Shown: piece after piece, positions 3,699 through 64,000 of the stretch | Layout of the letters: the number at the start of each line of letters is the position of its first letter | Position numbering within the stretch: the stretch's first letter is position 1 | From: Bacteroidetes bacterium 2013_40CM_41_45 | GTDB taxonomy: Bacteria; Bacteroidota; Bacteroidia; AKYH767-A; 2013-40CM-41-45 | Assembly (NCBI GenBank): GCA_002215675.1 | Contig: NGFH01000002.1 | Span: 657,887 to 721,886 of the forward strand | DNA length: 64,000 bases | Reading direction: 5' to 3' | Notes under the pieces: model-generated | Database searches by the model: none | Seen by the model: only the letters and a program-made list of their open reading frames with translations | Told to the model about the DNA's origin: nothing | Program-made: the position numbers and the translations under genes

Positions 3699-4904
3699 AT
3701 GAAAACACTTGCCTTTCTCTCCTCTCTTGCAATTGCAGCCACGACTCATGCGCAAGTGCTTTCTCATTCAGTCACGCAGGGCTCAGATTCAAAAAAAATA
3801 ATCACAGGAGCAGAGCAGACCAAAGAATATCTCCCTCTGCTTGAAGGGAAAAATATTGCTCTCGTTGCCAACCAGACATCACTCATTGGCAACACCCATC
3901 TTGTAGACAGCTTGCTTTCTCTGAAAGTGAAAGTTAAAGTGGTGTTTGCTCCCGAGCATGGCTTTCGCGGTGAAGCCGAAGCAGGAGAAACAATTTCAGG
4001 AAACACCGACCGGAAAACAGGAATAAAAATCATTTCTCTCTATGGTGAAAAGAAAAAGCCGCCACCCAATGACCTCGAAGGAATTGATGCAGTGGTTTTT
4101 GATATACAGGACGTAGGCGTACGCTTTTACACCTATATCAGCACCATGCAATACGTGATGGAAGCATGCGCTGAACAAAACAAAATTTTTATTGTGCTGG
4201 ACCGCCCCAATCCTAACGGATATTATATTGACGGCCCGGTTATGGAAGATAAATACAAATCTTTTGTCGGCAGAACTCCTATTCCTCTTGTGCATGGCTT
4301 AACGGTTGGAGAGTATGCGGGCATGCTTAACGGAGAGCAATGGCTCGATGGAAAAGTGAAATGCAACCTGGTTGTGGTGCGCCTCAAAAATTATACGCAC
4401 TCCGTTTTTTATACGCTTCCCGTTCCGCCTTCACCCAACCTGCCCGATATGCCGGCGGTATATCTGTATCCTTCTCTCGGCTTATTCGAAGGTACAGCAG
4501 TTAGCATCGGGCGTGGTACTGATTTGCCTTTCCAGGTTATTGGTTTCCCCGGCTTTGATAGCGGCTCGTATTCATTCACTCCCAAAAGTATTCCCGGTAA
4601 AGCTGCACATCCCATGTACGAAGGCATGGAATGTAAAGGTTATATGCTGAAGGATTTTGGTGAAATGTTTATCCGCAATTCAAAAAGTATTTATCTCTTC
4701 TGGCTCATGGCCATGTATGATAAATATCCTGACCACACAAAATTCTTCACTTCGTATTTCGACAAGCTTGCCGGAACCGCCCGGTTGCGCGAGCAAATTA
4801 CAAACAGAGTTAGCGAAGAAGAAATCCGCAAATCATGGAAGCCCGCGTTAGATGCTTACAAACTTATCAGGCAGAAATATTTGCTCTACCCTGACTTCGA
4901 ATAA
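3699..4904 (+). CDS. DUF1343 protein, NamZ-like exo-beta-N-acetylmuramidase
   Basis: Secreted protein of the DUF1343 family, whose characterised members (NamZ, GH171) release MurNAc from the ends of peptidoglycan fragments. The start at 3699 is preferred over an upstream in-frame codon because it gives a clean signal peptide (MKTLAFLSSLAIAATTHAQ). Family signatures include LVANQTSLIG, FAPEHGFRGEAEAGE and DAVVFDIQDVGVRFYTYIS, then DRPNPNG and SIGRGTDLPFQ. Near-complete length of about 400 residues. It follows rodA by 57 bases, so a role in wall turnover or MurNAc salvage fits. The function is family knowledge; only the fold assignment is seen here. Confidence 0.88.
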   Translation: MKTLAFLSSLAIAATTHAQVLSHSVTQGSDSKKIITGAEQTKEYLPLLEGKNIALVANQTSLIGNTHLVDSLLSLKVKVKVVFAPEHGFRGEAEAGETISGNTDRKTGIKIISLYGEKKKPPPNDLEGIDAVVFDIQDVGVRFYTYISTMQYVMEACAEQNKIFIVLDRPNPNGYYIDGPVMEDKYKSFVGRTPIPLVHGLTVGEYAGMLNGEQWLDGKVKCNLVVVRLKNYTHSVFYTLPVPPSPNLPDMPAVYLYPSLGLFEGTAVSIGRGTDLPFQVIGFPGFDSGSYSFTPKSIPGKAAHPMYEGMECKGYMLKDFGEMFIRNSKSIYLFWLMAMYDKYPDHTKFFTSYFDKLAGTARLREQITNRVSEEEIRKSWKPALDAYKLIRQKYLLYPDFE

Positions 4905-14622: not shown

Positions 14623-15642
14623 TCAGAGCACGTTTACTTCAGCTTCCATTATAATTCCAAAACTTTCTTTCACGCTTTTTTGAACCTCGGCAGCATGCTG
14701 CAATAATTCTCTTCCGGTTGCGCCGCCATAATTCACCAGCACCAGCGCCTGGTCTTTGTGCATTCCCACATTGCCGTTTCGTTTTCCTTTCCATCCGCAT
14801 TTCTCAATCATCCAGCCTGCAGAAAGTTTCATCGCATTGCCCTGGGCAGGATACGCAACCAAGTCAGGAAAAACGTGCTGCAGCCGGTCGTACTTTTCAA
14901 TCGGTATTGTGGGGTTCTTGAAAAAGCTGCCGCAGTTGCCAATAACTTTCGGGTCGGGCAATTTGCTCGAGCGGATTTTAATAACTGCATTGCTCACATC
15001 GCCGATGGTGGGGGATGTAACATTCATATGCTCCAGCTCTTTTTCAATAGCTCCATAGGTTGTATTGATCACCGGCTTTTTATTCAGCCGCAGCGTAACA
15101 TCAGTTATAATATATTTATTTTTTGCTTCACGTTTAAAAATGCTGTCGCGATATCCAAAGCGGCACTCATCAGCTGAAAAAACCTTTGGTTCTCCTGTTG
15201 AAAGGTCAATGGCCGTGAGAGAATGAAAAACATTTTTCAGTTCCTCACCGTACGCCCCTATATTCTGAATGGGTGCCGCCCCCACAAAGCCGGGAATAAG
15301 GGAAAGGTTTTCAACTCCACCGAAATTTTTCCCTAAACAGTACAAAACCAATTCGTGCCACGCTTCTCCCGCTCCTGCTTTTACAAAGGCATAATCCTCA
15401 TCCACGCTCACCACACCGATTCCTTCAAAGCGGTCGTGCAGAACGATGCCATCAAAGTTTTTTGTAAAAAGGATATTGCTTCCGCCTCCCAGAACAAATT
15501 TCTGCTGGCGATTGTATTTATCATCTGCAATTAAATTCTGAATGTCTTGTTCAGAACCTATTTCTGCAAAGTACCTGCACGAAACGTCCACACCAAAGGT
15601 GTTGAATTTTTTGAGCGAAAAATTTTCTTTGATAGCCGTCAT
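14623..15642 (-). CDS. murB: UDP-N-acetylenolpyruvoylglucosamine reductase
   Basis: FAD enzyme that reduces UDP-GlcNAc-enolpyruvate to UDP-MurNAc in peptidoglycan precursor synthesis. FAD-binding motifs LGGGSNIL and SLIPGFVGAAPIQNIGAYG are present; the catalytic Ser lies in CGSFFKNP, and the late Glu in MEAEVNVL. Length (339 residues) and the inserted region after residue 200 mark the type I (E. coli-like) form. The start overlaps the stop of yggS by four bases. Confidence 0.96.
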   Translation of the reverse strand: MTAIKENFSLKKFNTFGVDVSCRYFAEIGSEQDIQNLIADDKYNRQQKFVLGGGSNILFTKNFDGIVLHDRFEGIGVVSVDEDYAFVKAGAGEAWHELVLYCLGKNFGGVENLSLIPGFVGAAPIQNIGAYGEELKNVFHSLTAIDLSTGEPKVFSADECRFGYRDSIFKREAKNKYIITDVTLRLNKKPVINTTYGAIEKELEHMNVTSPTIGDVSNAVIKIRSSKLPDPKVIGNCGSFFKNPTIPIEKYDRLQHVFPDLVAYPAQGNAMKLSAGWMIEKCGWKGKRNGNVGMHKDQALVLVNYGGATGRELLQHAAEVQKSVKESFGIIMEAEVNVL

Positions 15643-16316
15643 ATTCGCTCGCCAAATATAGCTGAACCGATACGTACCATGTTGCTGCCTTCTTCAAGAG
15701 CAATTTTATAGTCGCTGGTCATGCCCATGGACAAAATTTCGAATTTCGAATTTCGAATTTCAAATTTCAGAGTATCGTAAAATAATTTAAGGGATTTAAA
15801 TTCTTTTTTAATTTTTAATTTATCTTCAGTCATTGATGCCATGCCCATAAGGCCGGTAATTGAAATGTTTTTCATTTGGTTCAACTCCTGAGAACGCAAT
15901 ACTATTTCTGCTTCTTCAAAAGACAAACCGAATTTAGTTTCCTCTTGTGCAATGTGGATTTGCAAAAGGCAATTTATAACACGGTTATTTTTTTCTCCTT
16001 CTTTATTTATTTCTTTCAGCAGTTTCAAGCTGTCTACACTTTGAATGAGTGAAACAAACGGAGCAATTATTTTTACCTTATTCGTCTGTAGATGCCCTAT
16101 GAAATGCCATTGAATATCCTTCGGCAATGCCTCATATTTTTCTTTTAGTTCTTGAACATAATTTTCCCCGAAAATAGTATGTCCTGCATCATAAACCTGT
16201 TTTATTTCTTCGGAAGATTTTTTCTTAGAAACTGCAACCAATACCGCATTGTATTTTTTTAATTCGGAAAGAATTATTTTAAGTTGGTTCAAGTCAACAC
16301 TCATTTCGTATGACAA
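15639..16316 (-). CDS. YggS/PLPBP family pyridoxal phosphate homeostasis protein
   Basis: Single-domain PLP-binding TIM-barrel protein that buffers PLP and affects amino-acid homeostasis. The PLP Lys is in LVAVSKKKS, and the family strings FGENYVQEL, WHFIGHLQTNKVK, GLMGMAS and LSMGMTSDY, then MVRIGSAIFG are present. Between KLFYDTL and LSMGM, a length-variable site in the family, it carries the sequence KFEIRNSKFEI, which is encoded by a five-unit heptanucleotide array (15734-15768). Translationally coupled to murB. Confidence 0.93.
   Translation of the reverse strand: MSYEMSVDLNQLKIILSELKKYNAVLVAVSKKKSSEEIKQVYDAGHTIFGENYVQELKEKYEALPKDIQWHFIGHLQTNKVKIIAPFVSLIQSVDSLKLLKEINKEGEKNNRVINCLLQIHIAQEETKFGLSFEEAEIVLRSQELNQMKNISITGLMGMASMTEDKLKIKKEFKSLKLFYDTLKFEIRNSKFEILSMGMTSDYKIALEEGSNMVRIGSAIFGERI
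15734..15768. repeat. Heptanucleotide array, word GAATTTC, inside yggS
   Basis: Exactly phased units: AAATTTC, then GAATTTC three times, then AAATTTC. Three units make 21 bases or seven codons, so the array is translated as a seven-residue repeat (KFEIRNS). Confidence 0.9.
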
Positions 16317-33918: not shown

Positions 33919-34641
33919 CTATTGCTTCACAAACTTTGCCGTGAGAATTCCTTCTTCAGTTTTTATTTTAACAAAATAAATTCCGGAAGGAAGAGAGGAA
34001 ATATTTATGACCTCACCCCTTTCATCCCCTCTCCTCAAGGAGAGGGGAACGAGGGGTGAGGGAAAAACCCTCTGCTCCGACACATTATAAATTTCAATAC
34101 CCTCAACTCTGAATTCTGCATTCTGAATTCTTAATTCATTCGAAACAGGGTTCGGGAAAAGCGTAATGGAATTGTATCCATCCTGCTCGCTTGCTATTCC
34201 CGTTGCCTGTGAAACAGCATGCAGATTAAAAGTTGCCCCGTAAACCGAAGGCGCAGCGCTGTCATCAAACCGCACGCTGGTAATGCCGGTGCCTATGGTA
34301 GTATCAGTGTGAAAATCAAACCGGGCGGTAACAAAGCCGCTTGCAGGAACTAAGAACGTATCAATGAGAACGCCGGGGCCCCAGCATGCATTGGGGTTGC
34401 ACATATTAAAAGACCAGCCCGATGGCAGGTTGGTTGAGTTTATAATTTGCCTCACATTAATATCTGCAGTTCCTGTGTTGGTAATAGTAAAGTAGATGTA
34501 ATTGGTAGAAATGGGAGGGCAGTAAATGAGTGTATCCGTTGCATCGATGGTGAAGGTGCCGCATTCCCAATGGTAGGGCGTTTGTGCAGCGCGGCTGCCC
34601 GAAAAAGTAAGCAGGAGGAAAACCGTAATTAATTTCCTCAT
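33919..34641 (-). CDS. Secreted T9SS protein whose sorting domain contains translated repeats
   Basis: A signal peptide (LITVFLLLTFSGSRA) is followed by a beta-sandwich of about 140 residues with few Cys, of unknown function. The C-terminal sorting domain begins SITLFPNPVSNELRIQ and ends SGIYFVKIKTEEG, then LTAKFVKQ. Two unusual stretches lie inside it: LRIQNAEFRV, encoded by a heptanucleotide array (34106-34140), and PSPLVPLSLRRGDERGEV, encoded by a perfect double palindrome (34011-34061). Both keep the frame. Otherwise an ordinary exported protein. Confidence 0.85.
   Translation of the reverse strand: MRKLITVFLLLTFSGSRAAQTPYHWECGTFTIDATDTLIYCPPISTNYIYFTITNTGTADINVRQIINSTNLPSGWSFNMCNPNACWGPGVLIDTFLVPASGFVTARFDFHTDTTIGTGITSVRFDDSAAPSVYGATFNLHAVSQATGIASEQDGYNSITLFPNPVSNELRIQNAEFRVEGIEIYNVSEQRVFPSPLVPLSLRRGDERGEVINISSLPSGIYFVKIKTEEGILTAKFVKQ
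34011..34061. repeat. Double palindrome read in frame inside a T9SS gene
   Basis: Outer arms CCTCACCCCT (34011-34020) and AGGGGTGAGG (34052-34061); inner arms CCCCTCTCCT (34026-34035) and AGGAGAGGGG (34038-34047), loop of two bases. All four arms are perfect. GC-rich against AT-rich surroundings, so a recent insertion is likely. Confidence 0.9.
34106..34140. repeat. Heptanucleotide array, word ATTCTGA, inside a T9SS gene
   Basis: Units ACTCTGA, ATTCTGC, ATTCTGA, ATTCTTA, ATTCATT in exact phase. Translated on the minus strand as part of NELRIQNAEFRVEG. Confidence 0.85.
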
Positions 34642-38656: not shown

Positions 38657-38711
38657 GCTTTGAGATTGACTCGTAGAGGGGGATTTCTTATCTTCGCCCT
38701 CCCTGAAAAAA

Positions 38712-38789
38712 GTTATAAGTTGTACGTTATAAGTTATACGAATTAGTTTCGTCTAGCAAGCGTATAACATATAACATGTAACATATAAC
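38712..38789. repeat. Inverted heptanucleotide arrays forming a hairpin upstream of efp
   Basis: Left arm 38712-38739: GTTATAA, GTTGTAC, GTTATAA, GTTATAC. Right arm 38762-38789: GTATAAC, ATATAAC, ATGTAAC, ATATAAC. The arms are near-complementary over 28 bases with a 22-base loop. The right arm differs at only one base in 28 from the right arm of the element after efp. Confidence 0.92.
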
Positions 38790-38800
38790 GATTTAGAAAA

Positions 38801-39364
38801 ATGGCAACAACGCAGGATTTAAGAAACGGCGCATTTATCCGCTTTAACGGAGAACTCTGCCAGGTGACGGAATTTATTCACCGCACTCCCGGCAACCTCC
38901 GCGCATTTGTGCAAGTGAAAATGAAAAATATGAGGAGCGGGAAAATGCTTGACCACCGCTTTCGCGCAGGCGAAGCAATTGACTTTGTACGTATAGAATT
39001 TAGGGAACTTCAGTACCTGTATGATGACGGAACATTTCTGGTCTGCATGGATAATGAAACCTTTGAACAGCTCCACATCCAGAAGGATTTGTTTGGTGAA
39101 GCCACTTCATTTCTCAAAGAAGGGATGACCGTAAAAATCGCTTTTGAAAATGACCAGGCCATTGCTGCTGAGCCGCCTACCTTTGTAGAGCTTGAAGTCA
39201 CCTACACGGAGCCCGGTCTTCGCGGAGATACTGCCACCAACACATTGAAGCCTGCTAAAGTAGAAACCGGTGCTACTGTTCACGTTCCGCTTTTTGTCAA
39301 TACAGGCGAGGTCATCAAGATTGATACCCGCGACTGGAGCTATGTTGGCAAGGTGAAGCAGTAG
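38801..39364 (+). CDS. efp: Translation elongation factor P
   Basis: Relieves ribosome stalling at polyproline. Three OB/KOW-type domains; 187 residues; C-terminal GEVIKIDTRDWSYVGKVK is characteristic. The domain I loop that normally presents a modified Lys (PGKGQAF in E. coli) or Arg reads HRTPGNLRAF, so the tip residue is Asn with Arg two residues later. Thus neither the EpmA lysylation nor the rhamnosylation target is at the classic position. Flanked on both sides by near-identical heptanucleotide hairpins. Confidence 0.95.
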   Translation: MATTQDLRNGAFIRFNGELCQVTEFIHRTPGNLRAFVQVKMKNMRSGKMLDHRFRAGEAIDFVRIEFRELQYLYDDGTFLVCMDNETFEQLHIQKDLFGEATSFLKEGMTVKIAFENDQAIAAEPPTFVELEVTYTEPGLRGDTATNTLKPAKVETGATVHVPLFVNTGEVIKIDTRDWSYVGKVKQ

Positions 39365-39440
39365 GTTATACGTTATAAGTTATTAGTTATCCGGAAGGAA
39401 GTTTTTTATTGCGTATAACATATAACGTGTAACATATAAC
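39365..39440. repeat. Inverted heptanucleotide arrays forming a hairpin between efp and pabB
   Basis: Left arm 39365-39392: GTTATAC, GTTATAA, GTTATTA, GTTATCC. Right arm 39413-39440: GTATAAC, ATATAAC, GTGTAAC, ATATAAC. Starts directly at the efp stop. The last unit runs into the -7 box of pabB. Confidence 0.92.
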
Positions 39441-58102: not shown

Positions 58103-58399
58103 CTACAGCAGCACAATTTCATCTGCCACCGGCTCCTTGAATTCTGCGTTTATGATTTCAAGAATTTTGTTACGGGCATAATGCAGCTCTTCCCTAAGCA
58201 CGGATGAGTTGACTCTTATGTAGAGTTTTCTTTTTTTAAGTTTTACTTCCTGCGTGCGAATGTTGATGGTTTGACCCATAAGCTTTTCCCAATTTGTGGC
58301 AATATGCGTCTGGTTGATTCTCTCTTCCAGCCCATATTCTTTCAACATGGCCTCAATAGCTTCTCGCAGAGTTATTTCATTTCCTGTGAACGCCATCAT
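58103..58399 (-). CDS. DUF721 (DciA-like) protein
   Basis: 98 residues of the DUF721 family: LREAIEAMLKEYGLEERINQ, NWEKLMGQTINIRTQEVKL and LYIRVNSSVLREELHYARNK. Related DciA proteins are replicative helicase operators in bacteria without DnaC, which suits its place next to recF, but helicase loading is not shown for this short form. Downstream of recF in the same direction, separated by a heptanucleotide element. Confidence 0.85.
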   Translation of the reverse strand: MMAFTGNEITLREAIEAMLKEYGLEERINQTHIATNWEKLMGQTINIRTQEVKLKKRKLYIRVNSSVLREELHYARNKILEIINAEFKEPVADEIVLL

Positions 58400-58406
58400 T
58401 AAATAT

Positions 58407-58482
58407 GTTATATGTTATAAGTTATTAGTTATACGGGAGGAGAAATTAATACGGATTTTTTTCTAATAGTATAACTTATAAC
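58407..58482. repeat. Inverted heptanucleotide arrays between recF and DUF721
   Basis: 58407-58434: GTTATAT, GTTATAA, GTTATTA, GTTATAC. 58469-58482: GTATAAC, TTATAAC. Same subfamily as the efp-flanking elements. The right arm contains the recF stop codon (58476-58478). Confidence 0.88.
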
Positions 58483-59582
58483 TTGTTTTCTACGGTTCCG
58501 TTAACGATGCTAAAGATACGAACGGGTTTGTTGATTCTTTTAAAAATATTTTCTACGCGTTCCGGGTGTGTATCGGTGATAAAAATCTGCCCGAAATTAG
58601 CGTGGCTCACCAGCTCCATTAAGCGGTTCATTCGGAAGTCGTCCAGCTTGTCGAAAATATCATCCAATAAAAGCAAGGGAAAAAGCCCTTTTACTTTTTT
58701 TATAAAATCAAACTGCGCCAGCTTAAGCGCAACAAGAAATGATTTCTGCTGACCCTGCGATGAAAAACGTTTTACAGGGTGTCCATCCATGGTAAAAATC
58801 AAATCGTCTTTATGAATGCCGACGGTTGTATATTCAAGTATACGGTCGCGCTGAAGCGCATTGCGGAAATGTTCTTCAAAGTCGGAGAGGTGATGATGCG
58901 ATTCATATACAACTGCAACTTCTTCCCGTTCTCCCGATACAAAACGGTAATGACTGTTAAATAAAGGAGTGAACTCCGTGATGAATGATTGTCTTTTTTC
59001 AAAAAGTTTTTTCCCGATGGTTAAAAGTGTTTCATCCCAGATTTCAAGAGCGGCCTGGTCAAAATAATTTTGCCTTGAAAACTGCCGCAGCAATGCATTG
59101 CGCTGTGTAAGCGCCTTGTTGTAATTGAGCAAGTCGTCAAGATAAATGCGGTCATACTGCGATATAATGCTGTCAATAAGTTTTCTTCTTTCCTCGCTGC
59201 CCCCGGTAATCAATTCAATATCGTAGGGAGAAATCATTACCGAAGGGAAGATGCCGATATGGTCTGCCAGGCGTTCGTATTCATTTTCATTGCGCCTGAA
59301 AATTTTACGCTGGTTGCGCTTAAGCCCGCATGAGATTTTTTCTTCTCTTCCATCCAAAATAAAATCGCCCTGAATCATTGCCAAAGGCGCATCGTAGCGG
59401 ATGTTCTGACTGTCAACCGGGTTAAAATAACTTTTACAAAACGACAGGTAATAAATAGCATCAAGCAGGTTGGTTTTACCTGCGCCATTATCTCCGGCAA
59501 AACAATTGGATTCCTCATCAAAAGAAAGTTCCGCCTGCCCGAAGTTTTTAAAATTTATAATGGATAATTTTTTAAGGAACAT
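58476..59582 (-). CDS. recF: DNA replication and repair protein RecF
   Basis: SMC-like ATPase that loads RecA at gaps. Start ATG at 59582 gives MFLKKLSIINFKNFGQAELS; Walker A is GDNGAGKTN, the signature is FSSQGQQKSFLVALK and Walker B FPLLLLDDIFDKLDD. The C-terminus is truncated by repeat-derived DNA only in its last residues (VENKL). 369 residues, normal. Confidence 0.95.
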   Translation of the reverse strand: MFLKKLSIINFKNFGQAELSFDEESNCFAGDNGAGKTNLLDAIYYLSFCKSYFNPVDSQNIRYDAPLAMIQGDFILDGREEKISCGLKRNQRKIFRRNENEYERLADHIGIFPSVMISPYDIELITGGSEERRKLIDSIISQYDRIYLDDLLNYNKALTQRNALLRQFSRQNYFDQAALEIWDETLLTIGKKLFEKRQSFITEFTPLFNSHYRFVSGEREEVAVVYESHHHLSDFEEHFRNALQRDRILEYTTVGIHKDDLIFTMDGHPVKRFSSQGQQKSFLVALKLAQFDFIKKVKGLFPLLLLDDIFDKLDDFRMNRLMELVSHANFGQIFITDTHPERVENIFKRINKPVRIFSIVNGTVENKL

Positions 59583-63760: not shown

Positions 63761-64000
63761 TTAGTCCACAATAAATTTTCCGGTTAAAGAATGGCTGTCT
63801 TTGGATAATATTTTATAAAAATAAATCCCACTTTTCAAGTTGCCACGTTGGATTTTAGAATTCCCTGACTGATTTCTTAAATGAATGACATTCTTTCCCG
63901 AAATATCATAGACAAGCAAATCGTAATTCGTAAATCGTATATCGTAAATCACTATTGTGGCTTCTTCGCTGAATGGATTCGGATAAATTGAAACAGAAGA
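63761..64000 (-). CDS. 3' end of a T9SS-sorted secreted protein, cut by window edge
   Basis: The frame is open to base 64000; residues before the first possible start read SSVSIYPNPFSEEATIVIYD, so the gene continues beyond the window and the GTG near 63952 is internal. What is visible is a complete type-A sorting domain ending GIYFYKILSKDSHSLTGKFIVD (in two blocks with LLVYDISGKNVIHLRN before it). The strand IYDIRFTNYDLLVYD is encoded by a heptanucleotide array (63920-63950). Nothing is known about the upstream domains. Confidence 0.88.
   Translation of the reverse strand, partial: SSVSIYPNPFSEEATIVIYDIRFTNYDLLVYDISGKNVIHLRNQSGNSKIQRGNLKSGIYFYKILSKDSHSLTGKFIVD
63920..63950. repeat. Heptanucleotide array, word ATCGTAA, inside a T9SS gene
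   Basis: Units ATCGTAA, TTCGTAA, ATCGTAT, ATCGTAA and ATC in exact phase. Read in frame on the minus strand as YDIRFTNYDLL. Confidence 0.9.

Follow-up and report, generated by a model that had tools for sequence, protein, structure and literature searches.

Rickettsia palindromic elements (RPEs) are palindromic repeats of about 150 bp that lie in frame within the genes of Rickettsia (Ogata et al. 2000, 2002; PMC10969869). They are the nearest published kind to the palindrome described here, which lies in a 64,000-nucleotide stretch of a Bacteroidota genome (the window; the genome that carries it will be called the host genome). In both cases, palindromes are found in frame in unrelated genes, are translated as an added peptide, and have intergenic copies as well. 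The present elements differ, however, in being 34-51 bp long (about 90 bp for composites), in carrying CCTCACCCC tails, in belonging to Bacteroidota rather than Rickettsia, and in being linked to an endonuclease gene. We therefore rejected filing them as RPEs, as length, sequence and host phylum do not fit, though the in-frame placement does. To our knowledge, no mobility enzyme has been assigned to RPEs, and in-frame palindromic insertions have hitherto been a Rickettsia curiosity.

Three other systems should be kept in mind. REP and REPIN sequences and REPtrons comprise small hairpins tagged with GTAG or CGTC (PMC3733652). Like the present elements, they occur singly or as inverted pairs, at times within ORFs, and in the REPtron, as here, hairpins enclose an enzyme gene to make a larger element; here, however, the tail is CCTCACCCC, there is no RAYT linkage, and the enzyme is a DUF559 protein instead of a Y1 transposase. 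The homing endonuclease I-Bth0305I (PDB 3r3p) shares its fold and sequence family with the DUF559 domain, but catalogues list it as the protein of a mobile intron, whereas the DUF559 domain, flanked by hairpins, is translated within its host protein, where neither an intron nor an intein was seen. Finally, intergenic heptanucleotide repeats such as the TAACTGA repeats of Beggiatoaceae (PMC4679880) form high-copy direct arrays between genes, as our heptads do, although the latter are recurrently translated in one protein domain family. Within the open-licence literature, we found no paper connecting DUF559 with palindromes, nor one connecting repeats with type IX secretion system (T9SS) sorting domains.

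Our main reading, to which we assign a probability of roughly 0.7, treats the window palindrome as a copy, lacking the cargo, of a hairpin element linked to DUF559; the protein tolerates it as an added loop, next to a heptad array that was captured. This would place a phenomenon comparable to that of the RPEs in a large phylum, now accompanied by a candidate enzyme whose fold is known.

Two translated repeats in one sorting domain

The features of the locus are collected in Table 1. The sequence-only reading had described a perfect double palindrome and a heptad array, both translated within a single sorting domain, and each part of this description stood up: one ORF reads through both repeats and yields the peptides quoted, Tandem Repeats Finder (TRF) reports the array (34108-34137, period 7, 4.3 copies, consensus TCTGAAT), and the palindrome resolves into nested arms with complementarities of 10/10 (outer) and 11/11 (inner). 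Outer and inner arms are separated by TTCA on one side and by ACG on the other; as these spacers differ in length and do not pair, the element is one perfect palindrome nested in another rather than a single uninterrupted one. Folded as single-stranded DNA, the element reaches -22.1 kcal/mol (z = -6.1), and 0 of 200 shuffles gave an equally low value. The window copy possesses a tail on each side of the hairpin, whereas most copies in the family are one-tailed.

Table 1. Coordinates of the host ORF, its sorting domain and the two repeats within the window
Feature	Position	Strand	Evidence
Host ORF, secreted-type, 240 aa; type A T9SS sorting domain at the C-terminus	33919..34641	minus	ORF call and profile matches
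Sorting domain (Por_Secre_tail / TIGR04183), Ig-like beta-sandwich in the model	33922..34161	minus	Pfam, TIGR04183, AF2 and Foldseek
Complete hairpin element including its two tails, read as PSPLVPLSLRRGDERGEV	34011..34061	unstranded	sequence, ORF, inverted-repeat arms, folding
Left tail / outer arm CCTCACCCCT	34011..34020	plus	inverted-repeat search
Inner hairpin 5' arm TCCCCTCTCCT	34025..34035	plus	inverted-repeat search
Inner hairpin 3' arm AGGAGAGGGGA	34038..34048	plus	inverted-repeat search
Right tail / outer arm AGGGGTGAGG	34052..34061	plus	inverted-repeat search
Heptad array of the TGAATTC family, encoding ELRIQNAEFRV (first beta strand and turn)	34106..34140	unstranded	TRF, model

Residues 161-240 of the host ORF are matched by both Por_Secre_tail (Pfam; E = 1.9e-11, 44.5 bits, cut-off 27) and TIGR04183 (E = 1.9e-11, 43.8 bits, cut-off 23). 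The AF2 model of this domain (pLDDT 78) has the Ig-like fold of known CTDs, and its best PDB match is 8glk_D, the NucA sorting domain (CTD) bound to the T9SS (TM 0.68-0.72, Foldseek E = 3.4e-3). The palindrome-encoded residues, 34-51 of the model, form a coil between strands 31-33 and 50-53, that is, the inter-strand loop directly before the INISSLPSGIYF strand. Sequence and model together say that the beta-sandwich would be kept despite both repeats. A tolerated loop insertion is plausible, since the palindrome residues are modelled as coil and the predicted fold matches the NucA sorting domain, and the window domain probably still works. The host genome encodes the SprA translocon (G000:C1:249613-256524, 2761 bits) with its frame intact.

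For the whole 240-aa protein, no orthologue with an empty site was found among the 40 relatives searched; the matches were to the sorting domain, together with weak full-length ones at 26-29% identity, and nothing else. Homologues that keep the Pro/Arg loop without a palindrome in their DNA, which the sequence-only reading had named as evidence against itself, were not found outright. The closest case is a paralogue, L130, in which a related loop is encoded over a decayed palindrome; the loop is there and so are the remains of the repeat, which reads as ageing of the element.

A dispersed hairpin family and its landing site

Sorting domains were compared between the host genome (130 domains) and a sister genome of the same family, G006 (122 domains). 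When perfect CT-rich hairpins with a stem of at least 8 were counted in the sister genome, 15 of its 122 sorting domains contained one, and the insertions share a common loop directly before the IDISxLPAGMYF strand (sense in five, antisense in nine, and two-tailed in one, L335). Upstream of the domains, 127 kb of coding sequence from these genes contains one hairpin. The host genome has the perfect copy in the window domain and recognisable decayed copies in the paralogues L130 and L182; nothing in its gene bodies or in shuffled domains scores as high as these decayed copies. At the domain level, the presence of both kinds of repeat is recurrent and site-specific, a point that lay beyond the view of the sequence-only reading. 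The sorting-domain family takes up hairpin or heptad DNA far more often than the remainder of its genes does.

One should consider whether a single ancestral insertion was simply copied with its sorting-domain cassette, with no repeated insertion at all. Sorting domains are a multicopy family (at least 150 matches per genome), so some of the insertions shared among domains of the sister genome may indeed come from domain duplication. Its insertions of like orientation have flanking codons in common and their orientations cluster on a tree of the domains, while the window domain and L130 carry both repeats at matching places. The same tree requires 13 changes for 15 insertions, although its resolution (63 usable columns for 122 rows) is too low for a count of independent events. 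Duplication as the sole source is nevertheless unlikely, in that one loop holds hairpins in both orientations, the heptad unit varies between paralogues at one site, and hairpin copies are also present in unrelated housekeeping genes.

The last of these points concerns the wider hairpin family. The host genome contains 35 exact CCCTCTCC-N-GGAGAGGG hairpins, and the reversed control pattern is found 0 times, which excludes chance. Exact hairpins number 71 in the sister genome and 38 in G019 (reversed control 0), and of 395 genomes sampled from the phylum, 26 contain the tailed form (control 0). Aligned copies give the family unit as GCCTCACCCC-TAA-CCCCTCTCC-AAA-GGAGAGGGG, a C-rich tail followed by a hairpin. 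Five copies (L002, L007, L038, L040 and L045) are composites with a second hairpin, CCCTTCTCC...GGAGAAGGG, and a tail facing outward at either end.

Approximately half of the host-genome copies lie within ORFs of at least 180 aa. According to Pfam, copies interrupt or adjoin TsaD, chorismate synthase, phosphoglycerate mutase (iPGM), UbiD, AlaRS and LeuRS, as well as a Mur ligase, an epimerase and an RlmL-like methyltransferase. The peptides that the copies encode typically read LTPNPSPKERG or PLSFGEGLGVR. The genome search for intergenic palindromes that the earlier reading had proposed found relatives in intergenic DNA and in other genes alike. By its distribution, this dispersed family enters genes in frame, and the capture of hairpin DNA by coding sequence is well supported. 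In two places (L043, ~180-270, and L051, ~4040-4090), a second hairpin family, GTAGCCCCGCCCTTTAGGGCGGGGT, adjoins the first and carries a GTAG tag as in published REPs.

The tail of the element is related to its own hairpin. In an exploratory comparison of 70 distinct hairpin ends (L001-L056, L187-L283), the tail corresponds to the hairpin arm read backwards, as its mirror image, often with a single T to A change. Tail and mirrored arm covary across subfamilies (z = 7.3, 0/1000 shuffles, with kinship of the copies ignored), whereas the same 70 ends show no match between tail and arm in direct orientation (z 1.2). In principle, three strands can associate where a pyrimidine mirror repeat adjoins its own hairpin. 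If the element belongs to a new class, as suggested tentatively below, the mirror tails would point to such a structure of DNA or RNA, recognised or made during movement.

Linkage to a DUF559 endonuclease

An enzyme between the hairpins is seen in the LeuRS gene of the host genome (L048:3526-6972, minus). Its ORF, 1148 aa long, contains at least four hairpins inserted in frame, and two of these, palindromes in inverted orientation, enclose a DUF559 domain that also keeps the frame. A Pfam-based search of 40 relatives found more hairpin-flanked DUF559 copies, some in ORFs of 790-1430 aa, and the LeuRS-borne DUF559 used as query against 84,980 species genomes gave 37 loci. CT-rich hairpins number 68 in the 18.4 kb within 250 bp of DUF559 versus 12 in the 86.4 kb further away, a 27-fold difference in density that should be read with the reminder that the set of loci came partly from the LeuRS-borne query and that related loci are not independent. 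Hairpins are found at both ends of 25 of the 37 loci, with the C-rich tails outward in nearly all, and the similarity between both ends of one locus exceeded that in all 2000 re-pairings. Palindrome family and DUF559 endonuclease are tied together, something that could not be seen from the window.

The host proteins scanned are LeuRS, IleRS, MetH and IcmF, in which the DUF559 domain is found in frame across Bacteroidota. The domain occupies a shared position in IleRS (~556-562 of TIGR00392; L256, L258, L273, L277, L278 and L279) and another in MetH (~1040-1060 of NF007024; L252, L254, L261, L266 and L276), and these shared positions recur in different families. In the DUF559 alignment, D44, E55, D57 and H61 are invariant, residues typical of PD-(D/E)XK/Vsr-like sites. 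Solved relatives by sequence are 3hrl (E = 2e-30) and 3r3p, the homing endonuclease I-Bth0305I (E = 1.1e-5; in a second comparison E = 2.1e-4, TM 0.69); PADLOC gave marginal matches only (AbiO, Nhi). MITEs are expected to have terminal inverted repeats in common with an enzyme-coding element, and the DUF559 units are bounded by inverted tailed hairpins.

From these parts a mechanism can be proposed. The unit would be a C-rich tail of the GCCTCACCCC type and then a hairpin, CCCCTCTCC-loop-GGAGAGGGG, and the full-length form would consist of two inverted units around the gene for a DUF559 (Vsr / I-Bth0305I-like) endonuclease; linkage and matched ends support taking the DUF559 units as that form. 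Most frames of the element lack stop codons, and because of this the host ORF would stay open after an insertion. Copies would persist where the extra 11-20 residues land in a tolerant surface loop. For the sorting domain, the predicted model shows such a placement, and copies elsewhere presumably lie in similar loops. DUF559 cutting would drive the copying, either by homing or by copying into the break, as its relationship to homing endonucleases suggests by analogy; the exploratory mirror-tail comparison bears on this step. Short copies would be moved in trans, and the window copy would derive from an element of the DUF559 type.

Several hairpin-bearing genomes (such as G029 with 15 copies and G038 with six) have no DUF559 match and therefore need mobilisation in trans, past loss of the gene, or another enzyme. 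LeuRS L394, from another class of the phylum, possesses hairpin-encoded peptides and no DUF559 in the stretch leading to the IEVFTTR motif, which it has in common with the DUF559-bearing LeuRS; going by its sequence, this insertion looks like a cargo-less derivative. Somewhat tentatively, at a little under even odds, we suggest a new class of mobile element, in which a DUF559 gene between inverted tailed hairpins inserts in frame and is translated, apparently unspliced, as an extra domain in essential proteins, and of which cargo-less hairpins, spreading as short added peptides, have colonised the T9SS sorting-domain loop. The loops of LeuRS, IleRS and MetH are testable targets, and the repeated landing site is the domain that defines T9SS cargo.

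A REP/REPIN-type element moved by a RAYT (a Y1 tyrosine transposase), with its coding copies accidental, would be the more familiar explanation. REPs and BIMEs are resembled in size, in the hairpin with a short asymmetric tail and in the two-hairpin composites, and REPs within ORFs have already been published (PMC3733652). The element tail, however, is neither GTAG nor CGTC, and the CT-rich hairpin is absent from all 24 Y1_Tnp loci taken from six genomes that carry the palindrome. The lone Y1_Tnp match of the host genome has a stop codon inside and adjoins other repeats, not the CCTCACCCC hairpin (L016:1501-1842; an in-frame TAA, with GGCTTTAGCC-type repeats on its flanks). With no hairpin at these loci and an interrupted host-genome copy, a RAYT is unsupported as the mobiliser, and we consider the explanation quite improbable.

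Heptanucleotide arrays

Heptad arrays were scored as stretches with at least 17/21 matches at lag 7, and sorting domains were compared with equal-length upstream chunks of the same genes. In the host genome, 19 of 130 sorting domains contain an array versus 0 of 464 chunks (Fisher 1e-13); the corresponding figures for the sister genome are 7/122 and 0/454. Lags 4, 5, 6 and 8 to 13 gave zero stretches in the sorting domains, lag 14 being the second harmonic. Within the domains, arrays are found either in the first strand that follows PNPxxN or in the loop that accepts the hairpin, and the units found at one site vary among paralogues (TGAATTC, TTTACGA, AATTATC, GTCATTG, AACCTCA and others).

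It is highly improbable that the repeats arose through selection for an amphipathic strand and a flexible loop, with DNA symmetry as a by-product: first-strand arrays do always encode alternating strand-like peptides (ELRIKNSELRI, QFTIYDLQFTI), but a 7-nt period is not divisible by 3, the other lags from 4 to 13 are silent, identical degenerate arrays also lie outside ORFs, and a coil does not demand a perfect 11-bp hairpin.

Capture of repeat DNA fits the arrays as it does the hairpins. Across the window and 20 sampled stretches, array density is 17.5 per 22.5 kb between ORFs versus 6.5 per 199 kb within ORFs. The degenerate array of the window, TTCAGAATGCAGAATT, occurs 16 times (control 0): ten outside ORFs, five in sorting domains and one where another ORF ends. 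Its recurrence looks, from the sequence, more like copying of the array than independent slippage. The suggestion that both repeats are intergenic elements captured by coding DNA proved essentially right, with relatives of the palindrome and of the heptads found between genes. Repeats normally regarded as intergenic, hairpins and heptads alike, supply new peptide sequence to secreted proteins.

Further arrays are present in the window. At its right edge, a second sorting domain (63767-63988, minus) includes an array at 63916-63951 that is translated as VIYDIRFTNYD. Outside the sorting domains, an (AATTTCG)n array at 15731-15774 is read as KFEIRNSKFEI directly before the LSMGM motif of a YggS-like PLP-protein ORF (15642-16316, minus). 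Inverted heptad pairs, (AAGTTAT)n followed by (TATAACA)n, lie between genes at 38710-38791, 39361-39440 and 58398-58484, and each pair could fold as an imperfect hairpin.
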